Shown here in pieces: positions 9,970 to 61,110 of a stretch of DNA of 64,000 nt. The position numbers and the translations under genes are program-made. The stretch comes from Ctena decussata (lineage: Eukaryota; Mollusca; Bivalvia; Lucinida; Lucinidae). Within the stretch, counting starts at the first letter, position 1. Each line of letters opens with the position of its first letter. Below the pieces are notes generated by a model. It was not told the DNA's origin, searched no databases, and saw only the letters and a list, made by a program, of their open reading frames with translations. The stretch is taken from the NCBI GenBank assembly GCA_963989385.1, contig OZ022503.1, positions 93,258,638 to 93,322,637 of the forward strand. The letters run 5' to 3'.

Positions 9970-10167
9970 CTGGGGTCGTATTTATAAAACGACTTAAGTG
10001 GTTGCTATGGTGTTGCTAAGGTCGAATTTCTAGGAAGGAGATTCCCTTCAACTATGAAATTTGCTCCTCCAGAGCAAATTTCATAGTTGTAGGGAATCTC
10101 CTTCATATAAAAATTAGCCTTAGCAACAGCATAGCAACGACTTAAGTCGTTTTATAAATACGGCCCC
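9970..10167. mobile_element. Fold-back MITE, family M2, copy 1
   Basis: This is a nearly perfect palindrome of about 198 bp. The left arm reads GTATTTATAAAACGACTTAAG and continues with GTTGCTATGGTGTTGCTAAGG. The right arm ends with the reverse complement, CTTAAGTCGTTTTATAAATAC. The inner arms are CTATGAAATTTGCTC and GAGCAAATTTCATAG. A second copy is at 23758-23973. It is a non-autonomous DNA element by structure; no transposase is seen. Confidence 0.85.
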
Positions 10168-10622: not shown

Positions 10623-11551
10623 CAATGCTTCATTGTTTCAAACCACGTGATGTGGCTCACTGAATTTTGTCCAACCAAACTAATGAAAAAAAAAAAGGCT
10701 TCACAAAACTCTGAAGTTATTCAGAAATATACTTTAAAGATTGTCTCCCTCGTTTATTTCATGTTTTCAGAAACAAATATTTAAACAAAATTTCGTTAGA
10801 CAATATGTAATAGTCTCATAATTATCCGTAAAAGTTATGAGAAAATGCATGTTTTTTTCGATAAATGTGGAATGAAAAATTATCTTCAAATAAAAATGCA
10901 AATTACCTATTTCCTCACGGCCTGTAAGATTATCGATTTTGACCACGTGTGTCATGTGATCATGTACAGGTATGTGTCTTACTCGTGCACGTGATTGCGA
11001 CGTATGAATAAATTACTTGTGTCCAAAAATGCGATTTCGACCGCGGTCTGCGACCGTTTAAAATTTTATCTTATTTTTTGTTTTAGTCACTTTTATCAAA
11101 TATTATTATCTAAATTCTATTTTAAATGTAAAGTTAGACCATGTCGAAGGTATTGCATGAAATATTTCATTGAATCATTTTTATTATTATTATAAAGGGA
11201 GTAAACCTTTAACAGTTCGGACAGCTTCTCGAACCTAAGCAAGAAATCGCAGTCTGATATAAGTATGCTCCGTTTATCCCAAGTCTGTAAGTATTTCTTG
11301 ACATGACAAATAGATTTTCTCCACAAATCTGCTCAGTAGGTCTGATCAATAGGGGGTGGTCAATGTCGAAGATGAACGCGTACAATATGGATTTAAGTAC
11401 ATAGTTAAGTTGTCCGAAATTTTAAATACAGGTACAAATTCGGTAGTCAGTTTACAAACTGTACTATGTGTGAACCTGAATCAGTGCAAAAAGATTGTCA
11501 AGATCTAATTCAGACAGTAAACAAGTCCTTGACAAGTTCTGGAAGAAGATA
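10623..11551. other. Unannotated sequence
   Basis: AT-rich sequence with short frames only. No gene, RNA or repeat recognised. Confidence 0.5.
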
Positions 11552-11793
11552 TTTGAGCCGCGACACGAGAAAACCAACAATGTGGTTGTGCGCCCAGCGT
11601 AGACTCAGATCAGCCTGGGCATCCAACAAGTTTGATCAGACTCTTTGCTAAGCCCTTAAAGGGTAGCTAAGGGTCTAAGCTACCTTCATGTGGACAGCGA
11701 AGACTCTGATCAGACTGGGCGGAAGCCCAGGCTGATCTGAGTCTGCGCTGGGCGCACAACCACATTGTTGGTTTTGTCGTGTCGCGGCTCAAT
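11552..11793. mobile_element. Palindromic MITE, family M1, copy 2
   Basis: This is a complete copy of about 242 bp. The left end is TTTGAGCCGCGACACGAGAA and the right end TTTTGTCGTGTCGCGGCTCAA. Flanking TA dinucleotides lie on both sides (11550-11551 and 11794-11795), which fits a TA target-site duplication as in Tc1/mariner-type elements. The inner sequence repeats the palindromic theme with TCTGATCAGACTGGGCGG. Confidence 0.88.
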
Positions 11794-11794
11794 T

Positions 11795-12170
11795 ATTTAA
11801 CCAATTTATTAACATAAGCCTCCTCAAGTCCTACTGACGGAATTCTGAGTACAAAGGTCATGTGAACTTGTCAGCATGAAATGCTGTCCAGCCCTTTGCA
11901 TAGATATAAGCATTTGTAGAAGCTACAATAAGAGGAGGGGCGGGGCAGTTGGATTGCATTCCAGGGATATTTGTTCTTCTTTAATACCAACGCATCTCTT
12001 TTCTGATATCCACGGCTTTCATGTCTCGCGGATTGCTTTAGTAACTGTGGCTCGAGAAGTGCTCGTCACATTTTTTCTGTTTATACGCACGGTTTGTAGC
12101 GATATTGAAGTAGGGAAATACAGAAATGCACATCTATAGCTGCACTGAATTAATCTTTTATACCACTACC
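11795..12170. other. Unannotated sequence
   Basis: Contains a short frame that I do not recognise. No other feature. Confidence 0.5.
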
Positions 12171-12939: not shown

Positions 12940-13680
12940 TTTGTATCACCCATGCTGCAGTAACTTTAAATTTTAATTTTACCTCACTGCCGTGTGGCGG
13001 TCGTAAAACGCCGCCCGGTACATCATCTATCATGAAGATTATATTTTATTTTCGCCCTTTGAAATTAGAGGATAAATTCTGAGAAATCTGAAAATAGATT
13101 GGTTTAGACTCTTATTCTAGATCATCGTCTTTAATATTATTTGGACCCTTTTGAAAGCTAATAAGTCATTGAATCGACTGCCGAATTAACGCTGAAAAAC
13201 TACAGTATGCTTTTCTCTGGTTTTGTCACCAGATATTATCAGGGTCACTGATGAGGCTTTATTTGCTGAAACTACGTAGTATGGTCCATGTCACTTCTTC
13301 TGAAAATGTTCTTTGCCTGTGAAGAAACTCTTTAAGATTTTAATTTTAGCTGGGCCTGCGTTAATGCACTAAAACTTAAATAGGAAAGTGAAAAGATAGG
13401 CAATGATCAGGAATTAATACAATCAAATCCCACATCCAGCCCTTAAAATTAACGACAAAAGTTCACGAAGGACACACACGGTAAACTGAATTAACAGCTC
13501 TTTCTCAAGCAGATAGTCATTCAGCTACCCTAACTGAAAACAGAACAACATCTATTTTTACCATTTTCCTATTCTAAATTACAAAACAGAAACAAAACAG
13601 ATATCAGAATGGGCAGCTATTTAGTGACCGAATTGCTAGGGACCAGAGACAATTGAACATATCATGTAACACTGAAGAAG
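12940..13680 (+). mobile_element. Hammerhead-bearing dispersed repeat, family HH, copy 1
   Basis: This repeat shares three blocks with the locus at 60475-61110. They are the GTGTGGCGGTCGTAAAACG block near 12992, the ribozyme at 13242, and the AAAGATAGGCAATGAT block near 13393 through GGGCAGCTATTTAG at 13612. It also aligns with 39105-39500 in reverse, sharing GATTGGTTTAGACTCTTA and CACCAGATATTATCAGGGTC. It has no coding frame. I infer a non-autonomous copy or terminal repeat of a retroelement. Confidence 0.7.
13242..13287 (+). ncRNA. Hammerhead ribozyme, type I, copy 1
   Basis: Segments in order are: stem I 5' GGGTCA; core CTGATGA (13248-13254); stem II hairpin GGCTTTATTTGCT; core GAAA (13268-13271); stem III CTACGTAG (3 bp with a 2-nt loop); TA before the predicted cut; stem I 3' TGGTCC. 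All six stem I pairs form, counting two G-U pairs. Stem II pairs GGC with GCT. The cut is predicted after 13281, where the NUH triplet is GUA, an allowed but usually slower site. Such a very short stem III is typical of hammerheads in Penelope-like elements and retrozymes, which often act as dimers. The fold was done by eye. Confidence 0.85.
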
Positions 13681-17887: not shown

Positions 17888-18075
17888 TTTATGCTCAACT
17901 CAGCTGAGCATGAAATTTTCCCTGCTGATAATTATGAAAATGCCAACTTATGTTGGCACTTTCATATTGATCAGCAGAGAAAATTTATACTCAGCTAAAC
18001 TGAGCAAGAAAACAACTGGGTTTATCAATAATTTGCTATTTATTAGCTGATGAAATTTCATGCTCAGCTGGGTTG
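17888..18075. repeat. Fold-back repeat (CTCAGCTGAGCATGAAATTT)
   Basis: Left arm TGCTCAACTCAGCTGAGCATG...CTGCTGATAA pairs with TGATCAGCAGAG...ACTCAGCTAAACTGAGCA. The centre GCCAACTTATGTTGGC closes the hairpin at 17942-17957. A third arm fragment (GAAATTTCATGCTCAGCTGGG) lies at 18053-18073. Structure suggests a small fold-back transposon. Confidence 0.7.
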
Positions 18076-21539: not shown

Positions 21540-23435
21540 CGACTGTTACAATGTATTACATACCTGTGCATGCTAATGTATCACACCGTATTGAATGTTG
21601 ATGCGATCAGACTTTCCAGTTGTCTTGATGATCTTGTATTCAAATACAATTTCTTGCATGACATCTCGCTGCCCTGCCTCGCTCGTCTACATCCCCCGCC
21701 CCCAAAGAAGGATTATAATAACTACTTACCTTTCTAAGACTAACGCTTACAATGGAGTAGATCGATGTGACTGTTCGTTGTGCAATCTTTGAACATTCCG
21801 TATGTTTTCTGTATTTGTTCTCCTCCATTATGGTGAAAGTTTAAATTACATTAGTAATTGATTTTGGTTTGGATTAGCGTTTCAACCATCTGGTACCCGG
21901 AAAAGAGTTGTTCATTCCTGCTGTCCTTTGTATTGTTGTACTGGGTTTTTATTCATATTACTGTTTAAGATGTCGCCATTACCTTGATGTTTCTACACGC
22001 ACTGTGCATTTTCATCGAAAACAACAACAACAACAACAACAAAAAAAAAAACTCGTTTCTGGCCATAGTCAACAATCATCAATTCCTAGCAGCAGTTCGC
22101 AAGTCGAAATCCCTTTCACTAAAATGGTCATGCAATGTCCGCCCTTTGTTCTCTCCATTTTTTTACAATATTTGAATCTGCATTACTTTTGGATAAAGTA
22201 TTTATCGACAACTCCAACTGCATCTTGCCGTCTGCCTATTTGCCGCTTGCCTATGTACTGACGGAGTATTGCCCTGCAACTTACAAACAAAAAGAAGCTA
22301 AGCCGATCATTATAGCACGTGGATTGCGTTGTTTATACTTGGTTTACTATTCGTATAAAACATGTCTGTTAATAGCATGTGACACCGAAATTTATGCAAT
22401 AACTGAGGGGTAATTTTACTCGAAACTGGCTTTTGCCGACCAGAATGACAATTTTCAATACAGTTCTCCGAAAGTGCACTAGGATTCCCGTTTAGTGTAG
22501 TTGTGAATATGGACTGGCCTATATCAGTTTCTGACCTATGCCATTTTACATTTTACACTACTTACCCATCAAACTGCGATTTCCAAATTCTTGGACTGCT
22601 TTCAATAACACTAAAAACATAAATGCCAAACTGTGATAAAGAACGGGGAGCAGTTTAACGCCCGCTCCGCTACACGGTAGTTTACACCAGTAGTTGTAAA
22701 AAATAGATACATTTTAAAAAATGAGCCTTAATATAAACGTAAACACTCACTAGAATGAAAAACAATTCGGATTTTGCATTATAGGGTTAGACTAACCGCC
22801 AATGTCAGATCTGCAATTTCGTTCCGGGTGTTTGTGAAGCTCAAAGCGGAATTTAGATAAATTGTATTGAATGGTGCCAACATCTTTTAGTAAAAACTAC
22901 TGAAATATGTAATGAGTATGTGTACCGAGTAAACTTGTCTTTGTTTCAACAAAATTCTGTGTTGTTTTTTTTTCGCACTTTACCTAGATGAATTAATTCC
23001 TCAATTATTATATCAAACAGCTTTGCATAAAACCATTACAATGCCAAGATTGTCAACATTGAAGATTGCGCAGAAACCTTTCAAAGAGACCTAGATCTTC
23101 AAAGTCCAATTTTATCACAATATAAGATCACTGACAGGATGAAAAGTGAATTTCAGTGCAAGTTCGCTTTGGTCAAATGAGTGCTGAAAAAGTGTTTAGA
23201 TTTGAAATTCGCTTTTGAGACATTCTTTAAGAATATTGAGTATGGTATCATTAGATACAAATACAGTTGATACGGACTCCAAATCCTCGCCATGTTTAAA
23301 CCAACAGCAGAATCTAAACATACAAATCATGAAACAACTTCAGTCAAGTCCCAATATCTCGAGCAAGGATATCTCAAAGTATCTTCTTGTATCAACAAAA
23401 TTATTTTTATTTTTGTTTACATATTACTCCTGTTA
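21540..23435. other. Unannotated sequence
   Basis: Contains a short (CAA)n tract near 22020-22041. Several overlapping frames of 60-117 codons at 21595-22413 do not resemble known proteins, and one is driven by the CAA tract (Gln run). No gene called. Confidence 0.5.
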
Positions 23436-23507
23436 TCTCAAACTACTGATATCTAAAAGTAAATTTTTTGGTATCAGAAAATTTACTTTGAGATATCAGT
23501 AGTTTCG
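23436..23507. repeat. Inverted repeat hairpin (CTACTGATATCTAAAAGTAAA)
   Basis: CTACTGATATCTAAAAGTAAA and its near-complement TTTACTTTGAGATATCAGTAG flank a loop that includes TTTTTTGGTATCAGAAAA. The neighbouring GATATCTCAAAGT and GATATATCGGAG suggest a larger GATATC-rich repeat from about 23365 to 23545. Confidence 0.6.
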
Positions 23508-23757
23508 GAAGAAATTAGACTTCGATATATCGGAGAGTTTACTGTATTTCTATTTTTTTTACCTTTATTCTGTTTTAAACAATACAGAAAGCAAATGGAA
23601 CAGTTATACAGTTGACTACTGTGCCAGAGGTCAAAATCTAAGCAAGCAAAACGAACAAAAGCACTTATATGGACAACAAAGACAAGTAACAGTGATTAAA
23701 CCTCAACAGAAGAAAGACCTTGTATTAAATATTTCTTTTTAAATGCAAACACTCTAG

Positions 23758-26434: not shown

Positions 26435-26645
26435 TTAACTCTTTAAGCCCCAGTGACGCAATTAGCAAAATTTGCAAACAGCGTAGATCCTGATGAGGCG
26501 GCTCATAATGAGCCGCCTCATCTAGATCTACACTGTTTGCCCTCTAGTCTTTGAATTCTCAATATAAAAAGTCTTGGACAAGGCATTTTTTTAATTTTTG
26601 CAGACGTAAATTTTGTCGTCTGCTTTTTGGTAGTGAAAGAGTTAA
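26435..26645. mobile_element. Small MITE with TTAACTCTTT ends, 211 bp
   Basis: Terminal inverted repeats TTAACTCTTT and AAAGAGTTAA define the ends. The inside carries a strong hairpin at 26472-26540: TTGCAAACAGCGTAGATC, then TGATGAGGCGGCTCAT, then ATGAGCCGCCTCATC, then GATCTACACTGTTTGC. Non-coding. Confidence 0.7.
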
Positions 26646-36344: not shown

Positions 36345-37120
36345 TTTACTTCTTCTGCACTAACACTATGTCTTTTATCACGTCTCACTATTGCACTTTT
36401 TATCTCCTACAATCTTTCGTTTACCTTTGCACTGACAGCGCAACTGCACATAATACACAAAAGAGGGTGCTGTAGTTTGAAAAGATAAATATATACTTTC
36501 TATTTCAAATTTCTAATACCAAAGAAGTTATACAATGTAAAGTACACTATAATAAAGTGTAGAAAACTATTCTAGAGCTGAGAGACGGTTCGTACACATA
36601 GTTAACATGGTTTTTGGCACGTTTTAAATATCATTTCCGACTGCTAATCAGCCTAATCGATTGAGTGTGACGGCACATACTGCATTTTTCTTGCAGCAAT
36701 AATAATATTGGCCCATTAAGATATAGCGTGACGCCCACAAGGCACAAAAAATTTATCCATTGCATAGCATCCTACATTATTATTGCTTCTTATAACATTG
36801 AGCTCCTTCAATACATTGCAGTAAAAAGACGGAAGAAAAAAAAGTTATCAATCTATAAAAGGTTTTAGAGATAAGAAACTTTTAGAAGCCATAGGCTTAT
36901 TGTTGGTTCATTAAACGTAAGGAGGAAACGCTTTTAATTTGGTTGATATGTTTGCAGTTTCAAATGCCGAAATACCAAAACGAAGGGAATAAGAATGAGG
37001 TGTTATCAAGGAAGTGCCGAGAAGTTCGCTAATTATTTTCACTTTTTAGTTTCTCGCATAGATAGACATACGTCTGTTTAAATGCAAAAGGTTTTTGGTT
37101 TCGAGCACACATAAATACAA
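36345..37120. other. Unannotated sequence
   Basis: The first part may be the 3' untranslated region of the LINE fragment. No other feature recognised. Confidence 0.45.
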
Positions 37121-37122
37121 AA

Positions 37123-37362
37123 TTGAGCCGCGACACGAGAAAACCAACAAAACGGTTCTGCGCAAAATGCAGACTCAGATCAGCCTGGGCATTCGCCAAG
37201 TCTGATCAAAGACTTCGCTTTGCGCTTAAAAGGTAGCTACGGGTGCTAGCTACATCCATGCTAACAGCAAAGATTCTGATCAGACTGGGCGGATGCATAG
37301 GCTGATCTGAGTCTGCGCTGAGCGCAAAATCACTCTGTTGGTTTTCTCGTGTCGCGGCTCAA
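37123..37362. mobile_element. Palindromic MITE, family M1, copy 3
   Basis: Complete copy of 240 bp with ends TTGAGCCGCGACACGAGAA and TTCTCGTGTCGCGGCTCAA and the inner palindrome TCTGATCAGACTGGGCGG. Flanks are A-rich, so a target duplication is ambiguous. Confidence 0.88.
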
Positions 37363-37364
37363 AT

Positions 37365-37725
37365 AAAAATTGAGATGGCAGACAAGACAGCAAAAAGTAA
37401 AAGTTGTTCCAAAGTTGTTCCAGCAGATACATGTATTACGTAAATTCTATCTCAACCAATATATGCCACTTTACCCTTCTATCAGGGCATATAAGACAAT
37501 GCAAAGTGTGTAATTTTCTGCTTTATAGTTCAGCATTTCTAATTAACATATAGCCTGACGTGAAGGAAAGAAGTATGATTTCCCACAAAACACGACAAGG
37601 TATGCGGGATCATTTACTTAAATGGAATTGCTTTATAGTCTTCAAACCCCAAATCAGTCCCAGTAAATGCATTTGGTTTCATTGGTTGCTATGTTGTTAT
37701 TGACAAGAGCTAACCATAGGACAAA
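37365..37725. other. Spacer between MITE copies 3 and 4
   Basis: About 360 bp, nothing recognised. Confidence 0.5.
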
Positions 37726-37962
37726 TGAGCCGACACGACAAAACAAACAAAGTGGTTGTGCGCTCAGCGCAGACTCATATCAGCCTGGGCGGATGCCAGT
37801 CTGATCAGAGTCTTTGCTATCCGCATGGAGGTGGCGTAGACCCTTAGCTACCCTTTAAGAGCTTAGCGAGGAGTCTGATCAGACTGGGCGGATGCCGAGG
37901 TTGATCTGAGTCTGCGCTGGGCGCACAGCCACTTTGTTTCTTTTCTCGTGTCACGACTCAAT
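37726..37962. mobile_element. Palindromic MITE, family M1, copy 4
   Basis: Copy of 237 bp, left end TGAGCCGACACGACAAAAC and right end TTCTCGTGTCACGACTCAA. It differs from copy 3 at many positions, so the two are not a recent tandem duplication. Confidence 0.87.
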
Positions 37963-37964
37963 TA

Positions 37965-39104: not shown

Positions 39105-39500
39105 ACTGACAGCTTACCACGTTTAAGCCAACCTCAATTTCACAGCAGCAACAATGTTTACAGACCAATGCCTATCTCTGGTCTGGGATGTTAAGGGACG
39201 ATTTAATACAAATTAAAATCTTAAAGAGTTCCTTCAAGAGCGGAGAACACATTCAGAAGAAGGAACATGGACCAGACTACTTAGTTTCGGCTATTAAAGC
39301 CTCTTCCGTGACCCTGATAATATCTGGTGACGAAACCACATTGTAATTTCTTATTTTTAAGTGGGCAGCTGATTCAAAGACTGATTAGTATAAAAAAAGA
39401 GCCCAAGTAATATAAAGGAAGATGATCTAGACTAAGAGTCTAAACCAATCTAAAATTTCAGATTCCTCAGAACATATTCTCTGACCTCAAAGGACAAAAG
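39105..39500 (-). mobile_element. Hammerhead-bearing dispersed repeat, family HH, copy 2 (reverse)
   Basis: Read on the reverse strand this matches the locus at 12940 through GATTGGTTTAGACTCTTA, CACCAGATATTATCAGGGTC, the ribozyme, and GGAACTCTTTAAGATTTTAA. It lacks the GGCGGCCGTAAAACG block, so it is truncated or diverged at that end. Confidence 0.7.
39269..39314 (-). ncRNA. Degenerate hammerhead ribozyme, copy 2
   Basis: On the reverse strand the order is GGGTCA, then CGGAAGA in place of the core CTGATGA, then GGCTTTAATAGCC, GAAA, CTAAGTAG, TC, TGGTCC. Every segment has the same length as in the two other copies. Stem I, stem II (GGC/GCC, better paired than in copy 1) and stem III (CTA/TAG) all form, and the cut triplet is GUC. 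Two core bases are changed (U to G and U to A), so this copy should be inactive. Confidence 0.75.
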
Positions 39501-39509
39501 CTAAATATG

Positions 39510-40150
39510 ACCTATATAATCCCGGATAAAATCAATAGTATTGTCTATACAGTGCTCATGCCTATATACTCTCTTTGCTTTATTTTGAAAAAATGCTGTA
39601 ATAACGAATTTTTAAGTGAAACATGAAGGATTCCGGGTGTTGTCTCGTTGAAAGTGACATAAAAACGAAATAAGAAAACGCGTGATCATTAACCCTGGCA
39701 TTATAAACTTTTCTCTGTTATGAGTTTGTGCTCTCAGAGATCACAAACTAATGTCGTTAGTTACAAATTCAATACCTTTATGTTTGATAATTCAGTCGAC
39801 CAAGCTAACCATTTATAGAAATATTCTGATTTGAGATTTTAACCCCGAGAAAACAGTTTATGGAACTACAAAAGAGGGAAAAGAATCATCTCTAAGGCTG
39901 AGATCAGAAGGAAAAGAGGTGCTCATATAGGCTTGTTCGATACCTGACCATCGAATATAGTCAAACCACACTGAAGAAGTCAAGAAGTGAAAGATTGCTC
40001 TTTCACAGTAAATACAATTTTATACAAATCCACAGCCTTTTTTGGATCTCGACTCAGCGTGATTGTGAATGTATTTAACCCATTTATGCCTAGTTGGCAT
40101 TTTGTACATATTGGACGAATTAATGTGCTATTTAAGGGGCGTCTGGGTTA
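39510..40150. other. Unannotated sequence
   Basis: No gene or repeat recognised. Confidence 0.5.
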
Positions 40151-40549: not shown

Positions 40550-41165
40550 GAAACACAGTTTATAATCTCAAGTGCTCCTGCTAAGCTTTTCGAGTTTGTC
40601 TCAAGTATGGCTTACGCTCAGAAGTCATGGAACTTACCGATCAGTTACCGGACTTAACTTACTATTGTTTCTTATACGCACACCAGATAGGTGTACTGCA
40701 ATAGCAAGAGGTGAGTACTATGTTTTGTTGTTTAATGGGGAGGTATATTTGTCACAACTTGTGGTCTCTACCAGTTGTCTGTACCGTTCGGCAATAAAAT
40801 GTGTTTCAACCAACAAACTGTTGTTTTATACTATGGTCGTAACGAGGCATCCATGGAGATCCTTGAACAAACCCGTATCAGGCACGTCAATTTAGGGATC
40901 CAAGTACGTTAAAATAGTGAATATTTGAGCTCGTGTTAAATAACTTACCAACAACTAGACCATATAGAGACGGCCCTCGGTCAAAATCTCATCAGAAAGA
41001 CCGGAGAAGCGGGCTATCGATCTCGTGACCTCTGCATTGGTAGTCCAGGGTGCTATCCACCACAGCGTAAAAGCGAGGATACTGAATTTGTCAATGTTTC
41101 TACGCTGTGCCTCGGAATGTTGGGCTGAGTGATTGTGGCTTTTCCCGAATACCTTCATTTTATAC
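40550..41165. other. Unannotated sequence
   Basis: A 107-codon frame at 40572-40895 is not recognised. Nothing else seen. Confidence 0.5.
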
Positions 41166-41170
41166 ACATA

Positions 41171-41436
41171 TGAGTCGCGACACGAAAAAAAGCAAAACAA
41201 AGTGGCATGTGCACCCAATAAGACTCAGATCAGCCTTGGCGTACACTCAGTCTTATCAGAGTATTTGCTGTGCGCATGACCAGTCTTTGCTGTCTGCATG
41301 GAAGTAGCTTAGACACTTAGCTATCCTTTTAAGCGCACAGCAAAGACTCTGATCATGCTGGACGGATGGTCAGGCTTATTTCAGTCTTTACTTGGCGCAC
41401 ATGCCACTTTGTTGCTTTTCTCGTGTCGCGGCTCAA
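41171..41436. mobile_element. Palindromic MITE, family M1, copy 5
   Basis: Ends TGAGTCGCGACACG and TTCTCGTGTCGCGGCTCA. About 266 bp, slightly longer than other copies because of an extra GTCTTTGCTGTCTGCATGG stretch that looks like a local duplication of its own GTATTTGCTGTGCGCATGA block. Confidence 0.85.
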
Positions 41437-41597
41437 ATGGTAACGGTGCCTTTACAAATCTTGATTGTCCAAACCCATATCTATAGGTTGATTATACCAG
41501 CGTGGGACATCAAATTGCTTTTATTTTGATACACTGCAAGGGCAAATGGCGTTGCTGTTGGTAAAATGGGTTTGCGTATGGATTAACAACTTATTAT

Positions 41598-41798: not shown

Positions 41799-42390
<592 letters not shown>

Positions 42391-42392
42391 TA

Positions 42393-42620
42393 ATTGAGCC
42401 ACGACACGAGAAAACAAAGTGACTTGTGCGCCCAGGGAAGACTTAGATTCTCCAAGTCTGATCAGAGTCTTCGATGTCCGCATGGAGGTAGTTTAAACTC
42501 TTAACTATCCTTTAAGCGCAAAACAAATGCGCTTATCAGACTGGGCGGCTGCCCAGGCTGATCTGAGTCTTCGTTGGGCGCACATGTGCCTTTGTTGGTT
42601 TTCTCGTGTCGCGGCTCAAT
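42393..42620. mobile_element. Palindromic MITE, family M1, copy 7
   Basis: Ends ATTGAGCCACGACACGAGAA and TTCTCGTGTCGCGGCTCAAT. TA lies on both sides (42391-42392 and 42621-42622), again fitting a TA target duplication. About 228 bp. Confidence 0.88.
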
Positions 42621-42811
42621 TATACGAGTAGACTTGCTTAAGTGGCTTCTTCTAATTGTTTTTATTCAGCAGTCTGTGCTGAGAACGAGATCTGACAATC
42701 AAACATACCGTATTTTTTTTTCAAATATGTACACTTCAAATACGTATAAATACCACATAATTATCAAATTAGTCCCCCCCCCACACACACACCAAAAAAA
42801 CCCCCCAGAGG

Positions 42812-47664: not shown

Positions 47665-49422
47665 TACCCCCATCACACTAAACTCATTCCCACTACGTTC
47701 TGGAAAATGCTGTCAAACGGGCTCAGACTGTGTTCCAACAGAGTGGCCGCAGTAGCAACGTTTAAGATATGTTTACGAACCTCATTGACGGCCTCGGACG
47801 GATTCAGACTAGAAGTGTGCTCCAGAACGTTGAGCATGTTTAAAATTTTCTAGCGGCCTTCCTGTATTGCAATTAGACGGAGTGGCAAAGTACTTAAAAC
47901 GAGATGGACATTCTACGAATGAAAGTGGTCAAAGTACCACAAATTATAAGTACGAACTCGTAAGTAATTTAGTAAGCATCACATTCCTACTAAATATACC
48001 CGCCATATCTATGTGTCAGTGGAAAAAGTCAGTGAAAATGAAAGTCCAGTATTCGAATGCTTAACTACGTAAGCTTCGGCTTAGGCCATCAAATCGGTAA
48101 TTAGTTTAGAAACGGCCACATTGTAGGGGGATCAGCGAGGTCATTGTGCCTCGCATAAAACATTTTAACCGTCGACACAAGCGTCCATTTATAATAACCC
48201 TGTGCCAACAGTTTACGGGTGAAAAGCCTCCCTCTTTCAACAAAGTCTTGATATTTGAAACAGGCTCTAGCATAGCGGACTAACTGAGAGATATAAACAT
48301 CGTATGCGGGGGCCGAAGGGATATTACTACTCAAAAATGGAAAGTTAACTATGGGAATAAAAAGTCGTCCCTCTTGTTATAAAGCCTAGTAACAAGCTTT
48401 TCATTGTCAATATAAAGATAACAATCTAAGTATGAGGCAGATGAAATGGACTCTGTGGTATCTTTAATTTCAAGTTCACATGAATAGATATGGTCAATAA
48501 ACTCCGAAATCATATTTTGATTATTCAGAAACAGAAAATCATCTGTGTACCTGTAGGTGAAGTTGAATTTCTGTGCAAGGTGTTTATTACCCTCTTTTAA
48601 ACATGGAATTGCCGTACTTCGATCCTAGTAGGACGTGCTACATGTACAACGTGGTGCGGACCGGCATCAATTTGCTGTACGTGTACAATATGACCAGTCC
48701 GCTGTAGCTCGTTCATCAACTTTGCGGACTGACACAACTCAACCAGAGGGTCCAGGGTATGCAGCAATCTTCTTTTCTTGACTCCTTCATTCAGCAAAAG
48801 GCTCAGGAGACTGTGCAATTTGGTGATAGGCTGATATGCAGCTTTCGAATCAAACAATAGCTACTTCAGTGTGGTCCGCCTTTCTAGCTCCACCCTTTCT
48901 TTGGAGGCATGATACTCACAAGGATGCAGTTCTCTGCACAGCTTGAAGTGACGAATGCAAATGAGAACTGCGTAGAACGCGCTGGAGTTTTGTAGCCGTC
49001 GGACCAGGTCATGATTGCAATTACATTTTGCACACACTAGGGACGAGATGAGGACGTAGTCAGAACGAGAAGAACTGCATTTGAACGAGGTAATCAAGTT
49101 ACGAACTAGTTTGGACGTATTGGGGACGTAGTAGAAAAAACTACGAACGGAGTTGAACTGACCATGGACGTACTTGGACTGCTTGAAAACGGTCTATGCA
49201 CGAAGTGGACGGGCATTCTGACCCAATATGAACTTGACACGAACGGACAACGGACGGGATACAGACGAGATGGACGTACTGAAAAGTGTTTATGAACGAC
49301 CAGAACCGAATTATAGACATTTAGGCCAAACGTTATACTCTCTACTACGACCACAGCCCGTTTCTTGCTTTTCTATGGATGGGGTAGGACGTGTTGAGAA
49401 CTAGTTTGGTGTGACAGTGGCC
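47665..49422. mobile_element. PIF/Harbinger-like non-autonomous transposon H2
   Basis: The left end is TACCCCCATCACACTAAACT. The right end read inward is GGCCACTGTCACACCAAACT. TTA lies on both sides (47662-47664 and 49423-49425). The left and right ends align base for base over 20 positions from the TTA. Subterminal sequence is rich in ACGTAC / GGACGTA motifs, like H1. No transposase is seen. The interior carries a Penelope-type reverse-transcriptase relic. Confidence 0.65.
48101..48598 (-). pseudogene. Reverse-transcriptase relic, probably Penelope-like
   Basis: On the reverse strand the conceptual product starts LKEGNKHLAQKFNF, then has the catalytic motif RYTDDFLFLNN (YxDD, near 48535-48545). 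It continues with an ASYLDCYLYID block, KRDDF and, after a 1-base frameshift near 48353, NFPFLSSNIPSAPAYDVY and SQLVRYARAC. It ends near a stop at 48101. This order (YxDD, YLD, KRDDF, NIPxxPxYGVYISQL) is a very common animal reverse-transcriptase family. I place it with Penelope-like elements, but that assignment is from memory and less certain than its being a reverse transcriptase. The N-terminal half and any GIY-YIG nuclease are absent. Confidence 0.65.
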
Positions 49423-49439
49423 TTAGTTTGCAGGCAACT

Positions 49440-50062
49440 TACCGAGTCTGCTATTTTCTGTTCATTGCTGTATTCCTTGATTCCAAAGGATCTTACTATT
49501 GCGAACGTATTTATCTTCACTGCAGCTGGTGATTATGCCGTATGGCGGCCGTAAAACGTCTCCCAGTACATCATCATAGTGCAGATTATATTTTCTGGCC
49601 CTTCGGGATCATTGAGTTCATTTAAGTTATTTTGATAAAAGAGTTCCGATTAAGTCGATGCTACGGGGCGTGTCGCACATTTCATTACTGGTCATGTACA
49701 GACTCAATTAAACCGAGTCTGCTATTTTCTGTTCTCTGATATATTCCTTGCTTCCAAAGGATCTTACTATTCAGAACTTATTTATAATCACTGCAGCTGG
49801 TGTTTAGCCGTGTGGCGGCCGTAAAACGTCTCCCCGTACATCATCATAGTGCAGATCATATGTTTGGTCCTTTGGGATCATTGAGTTCATTTGAGTTATG
49901 TTGAAAATATAGTTCCGCTTAAGCCGGTGCTAGGGGGCGTGCCTGGTGTCGCACATTTTATTACTGGTCATGAATACACTCAATTAAACCGAATCTGCTA
50001 TTTTCAGGTCTTAGATGTATTCCTTGCTTCCAAAGGATCTTACTATTCAGAACTTATTTACA
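49440..50062 (+). repeat. Tandem monomers related to the hammerhead repeat, ~271-276 bp
   Basis: 'CCTTGCTTCCAAAGGATCTTAC' recurs at 49475, 49746 and 50022. The block GTGTGGCGGCCGTAAAACGTC recurs in the first two units. Both blocks are found at 60475-60735, and the second also at 12990. In these units the position of the ribozyme is occupied by unrelated-looking sequence (AGTTCCGATTAAGTCGATGC and a variant), and no CTGATGA core is present. The array begins just to the right of transposon H2. Confidence 0.75.
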
Positions 50063-50064
50063 TG

Positions 50065-50690
50065 ATAATTGTTCACAGATACTGTCCAGTTACTGTCCGA
50101 AATCTTAATGACGTCCCAGAGATGGAAACAACAACAAAAATAAAAAAAATACGAAAAAGAAAAAAATAAAGGAGATTGTCTTCAAATTGAGTTTAGCAAA
50201 GAACGCTTTCTTTCATAGCCTTTATATGACTGTGGTATTGTTGGAAAAGACGTAAAACCCCAAGTCATGTTGGTGGTGCAAACACTAAAATAGGACACAA
50301 TTTCCACGACCATGACTGACATTTGCTTTAAAGTATTTTCGATTAAAAACATTGCGTTTCAATTTCGATTAAGTATATCAAGGTCACAGACTTATAACTC
50401 TAAGCTGCTATTATCAATAAATCCATTAAGAACAGAAGATTGTGCATATGAGGGCAGAAAATAAGTGTTGTTGCTGTGAACAACACCTTATGTTGCAATA
50501 TGTCTAGTTCTCTAAGGGTAACGTGAAAATAAATACTGCGGCTAATGACCAGACAAGTCTTTTAACGACTGGACTTTTGAGTTCTTGTCGTGATAAAACT
50601 TGTAAGGATTGAGTGATGTCTTCTTGTCTGAACACCCTTTCATACACAACTTTAAATACGTCTTTTAATTTAATTTATAAATTCGCGATG
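50065..50690. other. Unannotated sequence
   Basis: No gene or repeat recognised. Confidence 0.5.
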
Positions 50691-52670: not shown

Positions 52671-52818
52671 AACTGATCCGCCTGGACAGGGTCTAGGGTC
52701 TAGGCCACCTCTATGCGGACACCGAAGACTCTGATGAGACTGGGCGGATGTCCAGGCTGATCTGAGTCTGCGCTGGTCGCACAACCATTTTGTTGGTTTT
52801 CTCGTGTCGCGGCTCAAT
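52671..52818. mobile_element. Palindromic MITE, family M1, copy 9 (right part)
   Basis: GGGTCTAGGCCACCTCTATGC through GACTGGGCGG, GATCTGAGTCTGCGCTGG and TTCTCGTGTCGCGGCTCAAT. The left arm is missing or too worn to see. A C-to-G change turns the usual CTGATCAG into CTGATGAG. Confidence 0.8.
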
Positions 52819-52821
52819 TAT

Positions 52822-54998
52822 AATGTGGTATCTCTTGAAAGATGAATACGAAACGGGCACACTCGTGATAGGTATTTTTTTCTATATACCAATGAAACAT
52901 TACGCTGGACTAAGAAAGTATGCGTTTGAAATTATGTGCTAGCGAAGTCACCGGTCACTTGGTACAAGGATAACGTAGCTTACAGATGTTTAAAGAAAAT
53001 TCCAAACACCCTTGGAGATCATAACGAACCCCTAATAGAAGGATAGAATCGGAAACTTAAGCAACTTGGCTACATCTCAAGGTCTTTATTGGCAGTAAAG
53101 ACGATCTCTAAGGGCACTTTGAAAGAAAAAAAAGAAGAGGAGAGAGGGGCGAAAAGTAGACACGGGTGAACTTTACCAGCAGAACCAGAGCAGCTGATTA
53201 CAGGAACTTGGCGAAAAGAAGTAGTAACCCAAAGGTAATGCAAGGAGATGGAAACTAGACTAGGCATATCTTAGTAAATGTCTCTGCTCAGTTTCATGAG
53301 GACAAGATTGCCAAATATCCCCATAACCGCACCTTTTACAAGCTAAGCACGCCTTTTTCTCATCTTAATTCAACCCATTGTTTTGTTGCATTAATAAAAA
53401 CCTGTGTCAATACTTGTCCGAATTGTAGAGTACCACAAAAGAAAGCATCAAGAAGGAGATATCTGACGCAGCAAGAATCTGCAACAAGCCAAAATAATCT
53501 AAATTGATGGAAGCCAATGTACAGCTTTCTTGCTTCCGTTCACTTGTTTCGTGAGCAGCTGCCAGTTTATCTATGTACGTCTTGATCTTTTGGTTCTGAG
53601 GGCGGCATATGGATTCCAATTTTATTAGTTCCTGATCATTGTCTATCTGTTTACTTTGACAATTCATTCCCGAATTTACAACTACACACAGTCAAACCTC
53701 TTATAAATGCACTTATTACAACAACAAAATTCTTTATAACGTCATTTTGATTTGCACGAACCGGATGAATTGTTCGGAATATGCATTCATTACAACAGCA
53801 AATTCAGTTTAACGTCAATAATTTTGGGAATTAATGCCTTCGTTGTAAAGAGGATGCAATGTATTTAGTCAAATTTACCGAAATTAGTTTAATAAGCAAA
53901 ATAAAGCTATTTTGAATAGAGCACGAAAGCTCTTGTATTAACTTTGATGAATATGTAGGTTTAGTTTGTTAATGTTTCTATTGTTTATTATCATTTCTAC
54001 TTTTGGAAGCGAACTGCGCAAGACGAGGCTGTAACGCGTCTTAAAGGGTGCTTGGCACTAAATGCCAGCTTCAATGGTTGCAGCGATTTTTGTTTGGTCT
54101 CACGTGTGCTCGTTCCAATGCAGTTCTTTTTTTTCACGCCATCTTTGCAAAACTGAGAAACAAAAATGACAACACGGAATCGTGTTTCAGAATCATCGGT
54201 GGGTTATGCTTTGTATATTAGGCATTCTACTGGTATCTTCATCTGTGTTTGGCAGTTATAAGAAATACTGTTAAGTACTCTTGCCCGCACTTTGTACCTT
54301 GTTGTAGTAGCAGAAAATTTAGTCTAGTCTAGCCCAGTATATTTCATAAAACTACGCTATTGTAGCACCATAGATGACTCTGCAACACTAAATCCCCTGT
54401 TTGCAGGTGTCTTAATTGTGCTTGTGCTCGTAAATGCCATATACAGCTATATGTCCAGTTTCCTTCTCTTCCTCTGCTTGAGTCTTCTTTTTCCCTTCGC
54501 TGTTCCCTGTAGGTGTTGATGTTGCCGGGCTATCTTAGTTTCCGTTTTCTGTCCATGATCCGGATTTCGTCTTGTTCTCCAGTTGATATTCAGATATCGC
54601 TGCAAACATTATTATTAGTGACATTGTTTTTGTAAGTTCCGGTAGCATGTGGGCTCAAGCGCCTGATTTACTTTTCTAACGCTATAATTGTGGACTGCGT
54701 ATAAGTGATATACAGAAAATGGTATGTGACAAGGAAACAGTACATCAGTTTTACCTTAGATCCAGGAGCTTGTTGTTGTCTATTAAAATTGGCTTCAACC
54801 TGAAAAAGATTTTGCCTTTGATAGATGCATCAACAATGACAGCAAGATTCTGTCTCATATTTATTGGTACATACAAATCAAAACGGCATTATGTTTTATT
54901 CACCTCTAATATTTTAAAGGTTCATCTTAGCTAATAATAATAATAATGATAATAATAATAATAATAATATAGAATACAGTCGGAGATGTATCAAGGAA
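52822..54998. other. Unannotated 2.2-kb sequence
   Basis: An (AAT)n/(GATAAT)n tract lies at 54934-54970. A block at 53690-53870 with repeated ATTACAACAACAAAATTC / ATTACAACAGCAAATTC may be a short degenerate tandem of about 85 bp. No gene recognised. Confidence 0.5.
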
Positions 54999-55715: not shown

Positions 55716-56512
55716 AAGTGTTGACCCATGTGATCAAGAGACAGAATGACACTGTTGAGGTTAATCCTCCTTATATAGTACCATCCCTGTCTTTAACGGA
55801 AAATTTAACTTGGTCAGGTCAGGTATGACCTGCTACTGGTACCATGTTAAACCAGTACTACCTGTTGCATGTGGGTAGATGCGGCTCTTCAACCTGGGAA
55901 GGTGTTCTGTCTAAGAGAAACTAGTCTCTTATTAAAACTAGAAGGGGTAGGTGGAGCTCTTATCCTTGGCAGGCAGTCCACCTAGGAGTTCATTGCTAGG
56001 TCTGTAAACAAAACCTATGAACAAAACCTGTGAACACAGCACAGTTGGGCGGAAGTCTTCCTAGAAGAAGTCAACGGCCAGAGTGGAACTCAAATCTAAA
56101 TCAAGTGTTAGCAGCAAGACCCGAGCGAGCCCTGCTCAGCTTGGTGGAACAGCTAGATTAAGGGGTCACTGATAGGTAGGGACTGGCCCGATCACATTGA
56201 CCCTTTGAATCTGGTTGTCTAAATTATAGGCAGTGGACGAGTCAGTAGCTTGATGGGAGGAAATAAGACGCTCCAACCTCCACGAGTCTCCCAATCCTAT
56301 GGGTCAACAAGGGGTGGTATTAACACAGCATCACTGGGGGGAAGTCTTCCTAGAAGAAGTCAACGGCCAGGGCGGAAGAACTCTTTGAGTCAACGCCCAT
56401 GTGTTCTTGACCTAGGCGAGCCATACAACAATCGTTTATTTCGGCTGTGGTCAACATATATAGCCTGGAGAGGGATGGGCTCCGTCAGGCTGAATCCTGC
56501 CCTTGAAACACC

Positions 56513-57710
56513 ATGGTTGACAACCTAAATAAGAACTTCATACCGGATCGGTCGCAGCCAGGGTTAACAATGACCGGGCCTACTGTTGGACACCGGGACG
56601 TAGGAGACAAGTATGCAACTGGTGTAACACAGATCAAAAAAATCAGAGGTAGGGAGAACATCTCAATTGGTACCTGGAACGTGAGGACTCTGAGGCCAGC
56701 TGAGAAGCTTGAAGAGCTGACTCTTGGAATGGACAGGTATCACTGGAACATACTGGAGCTCTGTGAGATGCGCTAATAAAAACTTTGGTGAGATGTCAAC
56801 AGATGACATACACAAGATTTATTTCAGTGGAGAAGAGGTCAAACATGAGTATGGGGTTGGATTTCTTGTGCAGAAGGACATGATGATTGCTGTCTTGGGA
56901 TGCCGACCAATCTCCAGCAGACTGATTTCAGTTCGCCTGAGAGCAGCTACTTTCAACATCACCATCATACAGGTTTATGCACCAACATCTTGGCATGACG
57001 ACAATGAGGTAGACCACTTCTACCAGCAACTCCAGGAAATCATAGACCAAACACCCAAGAAGGACATTCTGGTTGTACAAGGGGAATTGGAATTCTAAGG
57101 TTGGAAAGAATGCACAGGCAGACTTGGAATACGTTGTTGGACCCTACTACAATGTCTAGAAAAATAAGAGAGGTCTCAGACTTCTAGAGTTTGTAACCTG
57201 TAACAGCGTAGTACTGACATTCACCATTGACCCTCACAAACCATCAAGAAGACAGACATGGCACAGCCCAGATGGGAAAGACCACAATCAGATTAATTAC
57301 ATCTTGGCGAGGAAGCGCTTCCGATCAGGAGTCAACATCCATAGGACAAGGAGTTTTCCTGGAGCAGACATAGGAAGTGTCCATTACCTGGTCATGAAGA
57401 TCTTCCGAGTTTGCCTGAAGAATGCTAGAAAACCAACCCAGCAAAGACTAAAGTTTGATCTTGAGAAGCTAAGGGACCCAGATGTAATATGCACTTTTCA
57501 AGCAACAATAGGTGAAACATTTGCACCACTCATTGGTCTGAGGGATGATGATATAGACATAGATACCATGATTACTACCTACAGTTCAGTGGTGACTGAT
57601 GCAGCCAGTGAGATACTTGGGAAAAACGTCGCAGGAAAAAAACCTGGGTCAATAGAGATGTTCTCGACTTCTGTGATGAGAGGAGAAATTTGAAGAAAAA
57701 GAGGTATAAA
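56513..57710 (+). pseudogene. RTE LINE endonuclease domain, broken
   Basis: The frame at 56513-56776 encodes the start of the nuclease, with ISIGTWNVRTLRPAEKLEEL (TWN motif). A frameshift at about 56770 moves to the frame 56724-57098, with YGVGFLVQKD and TIIQVYAPTS. A further break follows ILVVQGELEF. The frame at 57304-57693 holds the end of the domain and the linker. The catalytic motif normally SDH reads SVH here (IGSVHYLV, near 57370), and the HNQIDYI-type motif reads HNQINYI. Even without the frameshifts this nuclease should be inactive. The start of translation cannot be fixed. Confidence 0.85.
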
Positions 57711-59540
57711 GCAGGAGGAGCAGAAGAATACAGGGAAGCAAACAAGAGGATTCAGAAGGCAGTGAAGAATGCGAAGGAGGACTGGATAGCTAGTCAGTGC
57801 GAGGAGATCGAAACTTGCCTGAAAAAAAAAACAAAAAAAAAACAAGAAAGCATACCAGCTGGTGAAGGATCTAACTCCAGAGAAACAGGGTAGATCCACA
57901 ACTATCCAGGACAGGTCTGGAAAATCTCTTATAGAGGATTAAGGGACTCTCTGCAGATGGACAGAATATTGCTCAGAATTATACAACCATGAGACTGACG
58001 GTGACAATGCGGTTCTGGACTGCAGACAGACCCCAGAAGAAGATCAACAACCGATCCCTCGTAAGGAAGTTGAGATTGCAGTAGCAGCATTGAAGAAGGG
58101 GAAATCTGCCGGAGTTGATAATATACCGGCAGAACTTGTTCAAGCTGGTGGGGAGACCATGATTGATGTTTTAACATATCTGTAACAGGATCTGGAGAAC
58201 AGGAGAATGGCCTACCCCATGGACTCTGCCAGAACTACAGAACAATCAGCCACATCAGTCATTCAAGCAAAGCTATACTAAAAGTCATCTTAGACAGACT
58301 TAAACCACAAGCCGAATAAATAATCGCTGAGGAACAGGCTGGGTTCCGAGCAGGAAGGAGCACCAAAGAACAGATCTTAAACCTTAGAATCCTGTGTGAA
58401 AAGTATCTCCAACATCACAGAATCTGTACCATGTCTACATTGACTTCAAAAAGGCCTTTGACAGGGTATGGAATGCACCCTTATGGGCCACCATGAGGAA
58501 GTACAATATTAGTGCAAACCTAGTTCGCACCGTTGAGCCGCTATACGACAAGGCTACAAGTGCAGTCCAGATAAATGGCAGCACAGGAGAATGGTTTAGA
58601 ACAACAGTTTGAGTAAGACAATGATGTCTTCTGTCACCCACTCTCTTCAACATTTTTCTCGAACGAATCGTGTCTGATGCTCTGGAAGAACATGACGGAA
58701 AGGTTAGCATATGTGGCAGAAGCATTACCAATCTGCGGTTTGCCGATGACATAGACGTTCTAGCTGATGAAGAGCAGGAACTAGAAGCTCTAGTTGAAAG
58801 TCTCGATCAAACCTGCACAAGGTGTAAGATGGAGATCAGTGCTGAGAAGACCAAATTGATGACGAACAGCGCAGATGGCATCCAGAGGGTGATCAGGGTA
58901 AAAGGGCAGAAGCTGGGTACCGTAACAAGCTTCAAATACCTTGTAGTAGTTGTCTCAGATGATGGCTCAAAACAGGAGGTTCTCTCAAGGATTGCACACT
59001 CTGCTTCATCTCTTATCAAATTGAAACCATTTTGGAGAGATAACAACATATCTCTTGGCTGAAAGCTGAAACGTATGCGCTCCCTTGTCATTTCCATATT
59101 TCTGTATGCCTGTGAATTGTGGACCTTGACAGCAGAGTTAGAGAAAAGAACGCAGGCCTTTGAGATGAGATGCTACCGGAGGTTACTGAACATTTCATAC
59201 AAGGACCATATAACCAATGAGGAGGTTCGCAGGAAGATCCAAACAGACATTGGAGAATATGATGAACTCCTGACGCTGGTCAAGAAACGGAAACTAAGGT
59301 GGTTTGGCTACGTCACAAGGTAATCTGGTTTAGCAAAGACGATTCTACAGAGCACAGTGAAAGGTAAAAGAAGAAGAGGCCGACAGAAGAAGAGGTGGGA
59401 AGACAATATTAAAGAGTGGACAAGGATGGATTTTGCCAGCTCAACTAGGGCAGCTGAAGAAAGGACAAGGTGAAAAAGTATTGTTTCGAAGTCACCTGTG
59501 GTGCCCCAACGACCTAGTAAGGTTATGGGATACAATAGAA
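57690..59540 (+). pseudogene. RTE LINE reverse-transcriptase domain, broken
   Basis: In order: KEYREANKRIQKA-like linker (57729-57780), an A-rich slip at 57823-57845, KSAGVDNIPAELVQAGGE (58100-58150), an apparent deletion of about 45 bp before QNYRTI near 58230, and QAGFRAGRST. Then come FKKAFDRVW, a doubly interrupted VRQGC motif (two stops near 58609-58623), and the catalytic FADDID at 58739-58756. The C-terminal thumb follows with YACELWTL and FEMRCYRRLL at 59101-59190, then RWFGYVTR and KGKRRRGRQKKRW at 59357-59398. Family residues are as in RTE/BovB-like elements. The stops and frameshifts make it a pseudogene. Confidence 0.87.
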
Positions 59541-59554
59541 TAGAATATACTTTT

Positions 59555-60420
59555 AACAGCGATAGGCTTAGCTACATGTCTAACAAGACTGAACTCAGAT
59601 ACCTTAAATCGACCATATTCCCGAAGTACACCTGATAGATGTTAACATTATTCATCTTTGTTAATAATTATTTGGTTTTCATATGTCTGTGTTCCACAAT
59701 GTGTTTTTCAATAAACAGCTTATCATTTCTCTTTATTTTCTTTAATTATTAATGAGACGATGCCAAGCCTTGTTATATTCCAGAGGCAAAATAGACAGTT
59801 TTCCTACATAAAGGTTTTGTTATTGTTTTTTACAACCAAGCAAAGACGGACACATATTTTGCCATGAAAATGTATTCATGTCAAAATGGAATATACTTCG
59901 AAAGGAAAGTATTGAACATATTCTCTCTTTTAAGGGTTACCCCGACTGAGAAGAGAAGCAAATTTGGAAATATAGGAGTTTTCCCCTAAAATATACCCAT
60001 TTACCTTACAGTGTCTGGACGCACCTCTGTTAGAGATAATTGTAACCTTCTTACCTCTCATATTGCACAGTTTACTCCTGAAGGCTAGAAAATTATTAAG
60101 AGCTTTCATTTTGTTAAACATTTTCCTCTCGGGAAAGCAGTTACGATTCACAAAAGTTTCTCTTTTTTATTTCCATTACGGTGAAAAAAACCCATCCAAA
60201 TCAGGAAGATTTTCAGATAAGTTAGAAAACGTCTGGACTATTTGCACCTCTAGTTATTTCTTTAAAATTGATAAAAATACCAGAGTATTTTTACAATGAC
60301 CTATCACTGTGGTTAATTTTTATGGATTCTGTGTTTGTTAATGTTGTAATCTAGCAATGTAGTCACTTGTACATTGGGCGGCTATATAGCTGTCCATCTT
60401 TCGTGGATTTGAAAAGAATT
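59555..60420. other. Unannotated sequence
   Basis: No gene or repeat recognised. Confidence 0.5.
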
Positions 60421-60444
60421 TGTTTGAGTGTGTTGTTTTGCTTT

Positions 60445-61110
60445 GTGGCTTCAAAGTTTTTATAGAACATATTGAACTTCACTACAGCTGGTGATTGGGA
60501 CTGTGTGGTCACCGTAAGAAGTCTCCCTGCCCTTCATCATAGTGTACATTTTATTTTCTAGTCCTTTGGGATCATTGATTCCATTGTAGAACTTTAAAAA
60601 TATTTGAGGGTCACTGATGAGGCCTAATTGTCCGAAACTAGCTAGTCTGGCCCAGAAAACTTGTACACTCGACAGTTTTCAGTTCTTTGGTGTGATCCTT
60701 GCTTCCAAAGGATAACCCTTTTATAGAACATATTATCGTATTGTCACAGGAATCATGGATAAAGTAGGGTGAGGGTTGGAGGTCAAACAAATCTGTTAAA
60801 GGTTTTTCCCATTCTGGTTGTTTCTTACTAGCCGTTCCAAAGTTAAAAGATAGGCAATGATATGGAATTAATACTTCAAATCCCATACCCCGCCCTCAAA
60901 ACCAAAAGGGAAAGAAGTAAACACACAAAATGACAAAAGGTCAGGTAAGACTCGTACGGTAAACCAAATGAGCAGCTCTTGCCTAAATAGGTGCCCTTTC
61001 GGCTACCCCAACTGAAAACAACAGCAACAGCAATTCCATTCTCTATTTTAGATTACAAAAAAGCAGAGAGAACGGGCAGCTATTTAGGTGACCATATTGC
61101 TCGACAGTGC
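60445..61110 (+). mobile_element. Hammerhead-bearing dispersed repeat, family HH, copy 3
   Basis: Contains GTGTGGTCACCGTAAGAAGTC, CTTTGGGATCATTGATTCC, the ribozyme, CCTTGCTTCCAAAGGAT, and the AAAGATAGGCAATGAT to GGGCAGCTATTTAG part shared with copy 1. TATAGAACATATT occurs at 60461 and 60722, so at least part of a ~261-bp monomer is repeated in tandem. No coding frame. Confidence 0.75.
60608..60653 (+). ncRNA. Hammerhead ribozyme, type I, copy 3 (best copy)
   Basis: Stem I 5' GGGTCA, core CTGATGA (60614-60620), stem II GGCCTAATTGTCC, core GAAA (60634-60637), stem III CTAGCTAG (3 bp with 2-nt loop), TC, stem I 3' TGGCCC. Stem I forms six pairs (five Watson-Crick and one G-U) and could extend beyond an internal loop through TTT/AAA. 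Stem II keeps the needed G-C at its base with one mismatch inside. The cut triplet is GUC, the standard efficient one, after 60647. All invariant core bases are present. Confidence 0.88.

Follow-up and report, generated by a model that had tools for sequence, protein, structure and literature searches.

Metazoan retrozymes are reported to be built of units of 150-450 bp, of 350-390 bp in the mussel Mytilus galloprovincialis, and to show target-site duplications of more than 4 bp when such duplications are present (PMC7229834). In retrozyme relatives, unit-length RNA is described as circularised by a host ligase, and copying of the circle by the enzyme of a LINE or a Penelope-like element (PLE), primed by target DNA or by a small RNA, has been offered as a set of hypotheses for its return to the genome (PMC7229834). 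The geometry of the copies described below bears on the route by which retrozyme RNA circles re-enter the genome.

The 64,000-nt stretch of DNA analysed here (the window) holds two families of hammerhead-bearing repeats, A and B, which by their sequence fit the metazoan non-LTR retrozymes, the closest known kind. The A family shows several of the features by which metazoan retrozymes are recognised, namely 150-450-bp units of low GC carrying a type I hammerhead ribozyme (HHR), an arrangement in dimers to multimers, and PLEs in the same genome. The label of "uncharacterised repeat" given in the initial annotation was therefore too strong as to kind, since size, GC, tandem layout, hammerhead and co-resident PLEs match the published retrozymes (PMC7229834). 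We consider it likely that the A-family locus of the window arose when a non-coding retroelement inserted there, one that is non-autonomous, belongs to the metazoan-retrozyme type and would cycle through a hammerhead-cut RNA circle and target-primed reverse transcription. The features of the three families in the window are collected in Table 1.

Table 1. Features of the A, B and C repeat families, in positions of the window
Feature	Position	Strand	Remark
A-family insertion, 277 bp = 1.06 units (locus L002)	60458..60734	+	3' end about 60734
One 261-nt A-family unit	60474..60734	+	
Type I hammerhead ribozyme motif (A family)	60608..60653	+	predicted cut after 60647
Stem I, 5' strand	60608..60613	+	partner strand 60648-60653
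Core CUGAUGA	60614..60620	+	
Stem II and loop, GGCC-UAAUU-GUCC	60621..60633	+	third pair is a C-U mismatch
Core GAAA	60634..60637	+	
Helix III, perfect 10-nt palindrome ACUAGCUAGU	60637..60646	+	counted as 3 bp in the monomer and as 10 bp in the dimer
B-family element (locus L069), 388 bp = 1.06 units	12964..13351	+	366-bp direct repeat at ends
B-family hammerhead	13242..13287	+	core intact, GUA cut site, weak stem II
Truncated B-family element of one unit	39210..39520	-	
B-family hammerhead, decayed	39269..39314	-	core CGGAAGA
C-family array, 2.25 units of about 271-276 bp	49441..50060	+	body and 3' end homologous to A unit, no hammerhead
C-family core GTTCC-GCTTAA-GCCGGT-GCTAG-GGGGC	49912..49938	+	in hammerhead slot; putative twister-sister-like loop

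The hammerhead motif at 60608-60653

The motif reads GGGTCA-CTGATGA-GGCC-TAATT-GTCC-GAA-A-CTAGCTAG-T-C-TGGCCC and contains the core CUGANGA...GAAA...NUH together with an open-ended stem I, in which GGGTCA and TGGCCC form 6 pairs, one of them G-U. The cut site is GUC. Judged by these features, it is a real type I hammerhead, as first annotated: the core, GAAA, GUC and stem I fall base for base where they had been placed, and the small helix III (CTAGCTAG) was borne out. The accompanying description as "intact-looking" has to be qualified: it had overlooked the C-U mismatch in stem II, the monomer fold is poor, and a dimeric helix III is favoured by covariation. Inspection of the flanks by eye for loop 1-loop 2 contacts revealed no clear helix Ia or loop motif, and the mussel hammerheads too are reported without most of the nucleotides that make these contacts (PMC7229834).

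The pattern CTGATGA..GAAA alone was discarded as evidence: it is uninformative, with 4 occurrences in the window against 1.75 expected, a number reached by 8 of 100 shuffles. A full descriptor (stem I of 6 bp, stem II of 4 bp with at most one mismatch, GAAA, helix III and H17) matched twice on the two strands of the window, at 13242 and 60608. The same descriptor gave 21 matches in 9,969 Markov-1 windows of 64 kb, both strands, and 0 in the 150 random windows of an earlier control run. A chance resemblance to a hammerhead within a repeat, the reading that the missing Rfam match at cut-off would favour, has a practically negligible probability in view of this control frequency, the existence of two HHR families and the covariation described below.

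The covariance-model search suggested in the initial annotation, in which a missing hit was to count against the motif, went partly against it. The Rfam scan of the whole window yielded no family at the gathering score, and the Rfam hammerhead models recognised none of the window hammerhead copies at their cut-off. When positions 60301-60900 were scanned with E up to 10, the sole hammerhead model listed was RAGATH-1-hammerhead, which scored 15.3 bits against a cut-off of 56.3, with an E-value of 9.4 across all families; the copy at 13242 reached 15.7 bits with this model in a local scan, far under the cut-off. A model made from the three window copies recovers those three strongly, as it must by construction, and scored nothing else above 17.3 bits. 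Rfam scans of 60301-60900, 49380-50120, 12950-13400 and five C-family loci returned solely sub-cut-off matches, a pattern scan of viral contigs, from which records of this genome itself were possibly left out, gave 0 matches, and ARAGORN found no tRNA gene. The strongest sub-cut-off Rfam matches in the window and in loci L067 and L068 were miRNA models lying on long palindromes. Near-perfect long palindromes of the window, at 10035-10103, 17900-17998, 23431-23514 and 26465-26554, score below the miRNA-model cut-offs and are probably MITE-like hairpins.

Energy calculations distinguish the monomer from the dimer. As a monomer, the window copy reaches -7.6 kcal/mol in the HHR fold against a minimum free energy (MFE) of -12.3 kcal/mol, so that the HHR lies 4.7 above the MFE and another fold is preferred. 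As a dimer, it reaches -31.9 against -32.3 kcal/mol, within 0.4 of the MFE, the dimer MFE structure misplacing stem II. The copy at 13242 is weaker in both states (monomer -3.2 vs -8.4, dimer -22.3 vs -27.5 kcal/mol).

In the three window copies no measure of covariation stands out. The covariation set consisted of six distinct HHRs, two of family A and four of family B, at least two of the latter decayed; 95.6% of its pair cells are standard. Two-sided changes occur in four pairs, a number reached by 4 of 500 shuffles, and the covariation score was reached by 0/500, while the number of further pair types is not above that of shuffles (210/500 reach it). Three of the four two-sided changes sit in the helix III palindrome, where columns 33-36 and 34-35 can pair only between two molecules; two of these three derive from a single, otherwise decayed copy (L055), and the third separates A from B. 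Within these six sequences, at least two of them decayed, covariation supports the three helices of a type I hammerhead.

Because helix III is palindromic with covarying inner pairs, and because the dimeric HHR lies close to the dimer MFE, the window hammerhead probably cuts as a dimer; the small number of sequences (six) makes the covariation support for this rather than proof. The covariation in helix III also suggests selection on the ribozyme. Folded as the predicted circle, the A unit shows no more structure than shuffled sequence does (z -0.83 and -0.92). A small RNA within a mobile repeat can probably cut itself here, and we infer the self-processing of repeat RNA that had been proposed at the outset.

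Genome copies and the geometry of their ends

The motif at 60608 stands between the two copies of a 16-nt direct repeat, which are 261 bp apart. The genome (1.66 Gb, 245 contigs) was searched with the 67-nt A motif, giving 1,028 first-look candidates; the 40 that were scored are all 99-100% identical, lie on five contigs and include several spacings of 261 or 262 bp. Of these 40 places, 7 overlap neighbouring loci of one array; with these set aside, 33 distinct copies remained. Stem I, core and palindrome are kept in 33/33 of these, and stem II is complete in 30, with a mismatch in the window copy, L001 and L003; since the search ordered copies by their likeness to the query, this retention is no measure of selection. 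The 261-bp unit is dispersed, non-autonomous and without coding capacity: the A element lacks an ORF with reverse transcriptase and GIY-YIG domains as found in a Penelope-like element, and the tested ORFs beside the window copy have no Pfam match except in the upstream LINE.

In the B family, the plus-strand hammerhead at 13242-13287 is 80% identical to the window A hammerhead, and its search gave 973 first-look candidates, of which 40 were scored at 90-100%. Spacings of 381, 383 and 768 bp among the scored places, of 387 bp in L071 and of 366 bp in the window indicate B units of 366-387 bp. Their 3' ends coincide in four of the five copies fetched besides the reference, L071 being the exception. 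In the pair of window B copies, the HHR (84%) is not clearly more conserved than the upstream (82%) and downstream (88%) body, the piece from the copy at 39 kb being one base off. B hammerheads neighbouring the PLE loci L052, L055 and L041 (3 of 20 loci) were considered as PLE-internal hammerheads; this was rejected, and they are taken as insertions. The copies at 13242 and 39269(-), the direct repeat and the genome-wide 261-262-bp spacings agree with the initial description of a dispersed, partly tandem repeat.

The ends of the A copies were mapped on a real unit taken from L018, itself among the 33. The 3' ends fall at unit positions 259-262/1-13 in 31 of the 33 distinct loci, and within 259-262/1-3 in 26; the common end lies near ...TTTTATAGAACATATT, at a distance of 87 nt on the downstream side of the cut. 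Two loci deviate, L001 and L014, the latter seemingly with an internal deletion and the same end. The 5' ends scatter over the unit (KS vs uniform, p 0.35), the nearest being 9 nt from the cut site. Copy lengths range from 0.57 to 6.3 units, at least one unit in 21 copies and less in 12; as copies were found through the HHR, short copies without it are missed from these counts. A fixed 3' end combined with scattered 5' ends is the mark of target-primed reverse transcription.

The A copies have unlike flanks. Among 23 A copies, the only matches of at least 7 nt that could count as target-site duplications were two lying within repeats, and the targets are not enriched in AT (0.625 vs 0.625, with 23 of 33 copies anchored). 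Copy L024 sits in a LINE of which another copy lies in the window, and its flanks fit that LINE; comparison with this empty site left 1 to 3 LINE bases between the flanks, depending on the element end chosen, and no duplication. The combination of fixed 3' ends, scattered 5' ends and unlike flanks, present even in sub-unit copies, is a reverse-transcription signature that argues against a satellite-like tandem repeat propagated by unequal crossing-over, carried about by DNA transposons such as Helentrons and retaining the motif as a relic. Such an origin is very unlikely, even though Helentrons of an oyster are reported to carry satellite-like arrays (PMC7492417) and other repeats frequently form short dispersed tandem arrays in the window.

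The cut site lies inside every A copy examined and is the starting point of none; the template was therefore not a linear cut monomer, leaving a circle or an uncut multimer. Nine copies contain several units. In five of them (L001, L008, L011, L027 and L036), a substitution found in at most one other copy is common to all units covering the site, spanning up to 7 units within one copy. The remaining four have no such private shared substitution: L015 and L037 contain no shared variant, those of L018 also occur in at least three other copies, and L016 shares a gap found in one or two others. The units of one copy differ from each other at 2 to 78 positions per copy, as expected of later decay. 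We read the private shared variants as traces of a single circle having been copied several times; homogenisation within a locus may likewise produce them.

Alternatively, long multimer transcripts might be reverse-transcribed uncut in a target-primed manner, the hammerhead being a passenger or acting elsewhere and no circle being involved. This route would equally yield copies that cross the cut site and never begin there. It would also accommodate the report that catalytic HHR mutants of one PLE left in vitro insertion unchanged (PMC11167929), as well as the amplification of the C family, which has no hammerhead. The private variants present in all units of one copy (5/9) point instead to a single unit copied repeatedly, and the covariation of helix III suggests that the ribozyme is under selection, so that we regard uncut templates as unlikely. 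Target-primed copying of a circle would be expected to leave a fixed internal 3' end, scattered 5' ends, lengths of 0.57-6.3 units and private shared variants. The copy geometry suggests that an RNA circle is reverse-transcribed in rolling-circle mode from a primer in the target DNA.

The hammerhead-less C family and neighbouring elements

The array at 49441-50060 shares 66% identity with the A body and 3' end. Its family produced 2,416 first-look candidates in the genome, 40 of them scored at 92-100%, and the five copies examined besides the reference (5/5) end 3' together. In the slot of the hammerhead stands a core that may be compared with the twister-sister-like ribozymes of LINE-1 and OR4K15, in which the loop strands GCU[C/U]AA and GCUAG lie between two stems, and in which U for C at the cut site is reported to be partly active (PMC11620745). 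The loop strands of the C core match those of the LINE-1 ribozyme except that U replaces C at the cut site (C10U); in the C core, the second stem would be possible solely between two molecules. A classical twister reading was dropped in favour of this twister-sister-like loop, which we put forward as a post hoc hypothesis, formed after seeing the sequence.

The unconstrained dimer MFE of the C core corresponds to the lantern fold, with unremarkable dimer stability (173 of 500 shuffled homodimers are as stable), and the stability of the single-strand hairpin at its centre does not exceed that of shuffled sequence (z -0.66). Rfam listed no twister-sister match for the array (49380-50120) or for five C-family loci, no covariation was visible by eye in the fetched copies, and the loop is no longer present in the first unit of the array at 49441-50060. 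A twister-sister-like descriptor matched once in this window and 8 times in 1,036 random windows. On a broader and doubtful reading, sister retroelements with the same body and internal reverse transcription start would swap their ribozyme cassette (hammerhead in A, twister-sister-like in C), both acting only as dimers through a palindromic helix, which would couple cleavage of the RNA to its multimeric form, with circles copied by target-primed rolling-circle reverse transcription. A different ribozyme-like core in the hammerhead slot of a sister family would, if true, mean that the catalytic part is exchangeable.

The genome is rich in PLEs. A search for GIY-YIG, the PLE endonuclease domain, gave 926 candidates, and the 150 scored were all over the cut-off; many lie in frames of 766 or 774 aa, in tandem or head to head, so that PLEs with long open frames reside alongside the A family. 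This abundance, and one PLE family with CTGATGA..GAAA and a palindromic helix III upstream of its ORFs, would suit a derivation of the hammerheads from the pseudo-LTR of a Penelope-like retrotransposon, the repeats being its fragments. The A unit, however, has no significant similarity to the two PLE families fetched whole and compared (best E 0.12), and the sole convincing Pfam matches among 30 stop-free window ORFs are parts of a LINE reverse transcriptase at 58.4-59.1 kb, hits to other families being sub-threshold; descent from such an element is accordingly highly improbable.

Several side observations concern these neighbours. In the PLE with the 774-aa ORF, CTGATGA..GAAATGCATA|GGGAA stands upstream of the ORFs (L061, reverse strand, about position 147; also L042, L043, L045, L052 and L056-L058) and is possibly a minimal hammerhead with a palindromic helix III. 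The broken LINE of the window spans 56223-59320 (outer limits approximate) and ends about 1.3 kb upstream of the hammerhead; its RVT_1 pieces lie at 58400-58609 (below cut-off) and 58625-59059 (over cut-off). A dispersed repeat beginning AGATAGGCAATGATC follows two of the hammerhead loci on their downstream side (13385-13637 and 60839-61101) and occurs again at 53560-53658(-) and next to a PLE (L047, 506-645). The block shared by 13385-13637 and 60839-61101 was rejected as part of the element: the occurrence at 53560-53658 has no hammerhead match nearby, another is beside PLE L047, and the A copies end earlier. A further repeat of about 240 bp is present in both orientations at 522-743, 11549-11799, 37111-37365, 37721-37964, 41162-41438, 42386-42624 and 52695-52822, and in PLE loci L041 and L047.

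Proposed cycle and comparison with known systems

In the cycle that we propose, tandem A units would first be transcribed. The palindromic helix III would then join two hammerheads, each cutting the other after the position of the unit corresponding to 60647, a step suggested by sequence and covariation, and a host ligase would close the 261-nt unit RNA into a circle. The reverse transcriptase of another element would start at a fixed internal site of the circle, the unit end ...AGAACATATT at window position 60734, primed by target DNA. On the unit, the predicted start site is ...AGAACAUAUU. Reverse transcription would run round the circle zero to several times and stop anywhere, leaving a fixed 3' end, scattered 5' ends and like units. 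The copy ends themselves are observed; the circle would be their template, and a PLE enzyme may be the helper. The link to PLEs rests on their co-residence, on the published proposal (PMC7229834) and on the report that one PLE enzyme initiates reverse transcription internally (PMC11167929). Copy-end and private-variant patterns of retrozymes are countable in any genome, and they name a testable start site of reverse transcription.

The nearest counterparts are the non-LTR retrozymes of the mussel, which likewise consist of short non-coding tandem units with a type I HHR and a GC content of about 40%, range from partial monomers to multimers and share their genome with PLEs (PMC7229834). The A unit (261-262 bp) is shorter than theirs, no target-site duplication of at least 7 nt was found around 23 of its copies, and the fixed 3' end with 5' truncation seen here is not mentioned in the available part of that account (PMC7229834). 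The satellite retrozymes of newt and axolotl have units of 330-350 bp in another host and are likened to the A family by description rather than by sequence; as in A, helix III is very short with a palindromic loop, and activity is expected of the dimer (PMC7229834). The minimal type I hammerheads of Penelope-like elements and Terminons lie in the pseudo-LTR of an element encoding reverse transcriptase and GIY-YIG, whereas that of the A family lies in a non-coding 261-bp unit; they have, as here, a minimal helix III, for which cleavage as a dimer has been proposed (PMC7761336).
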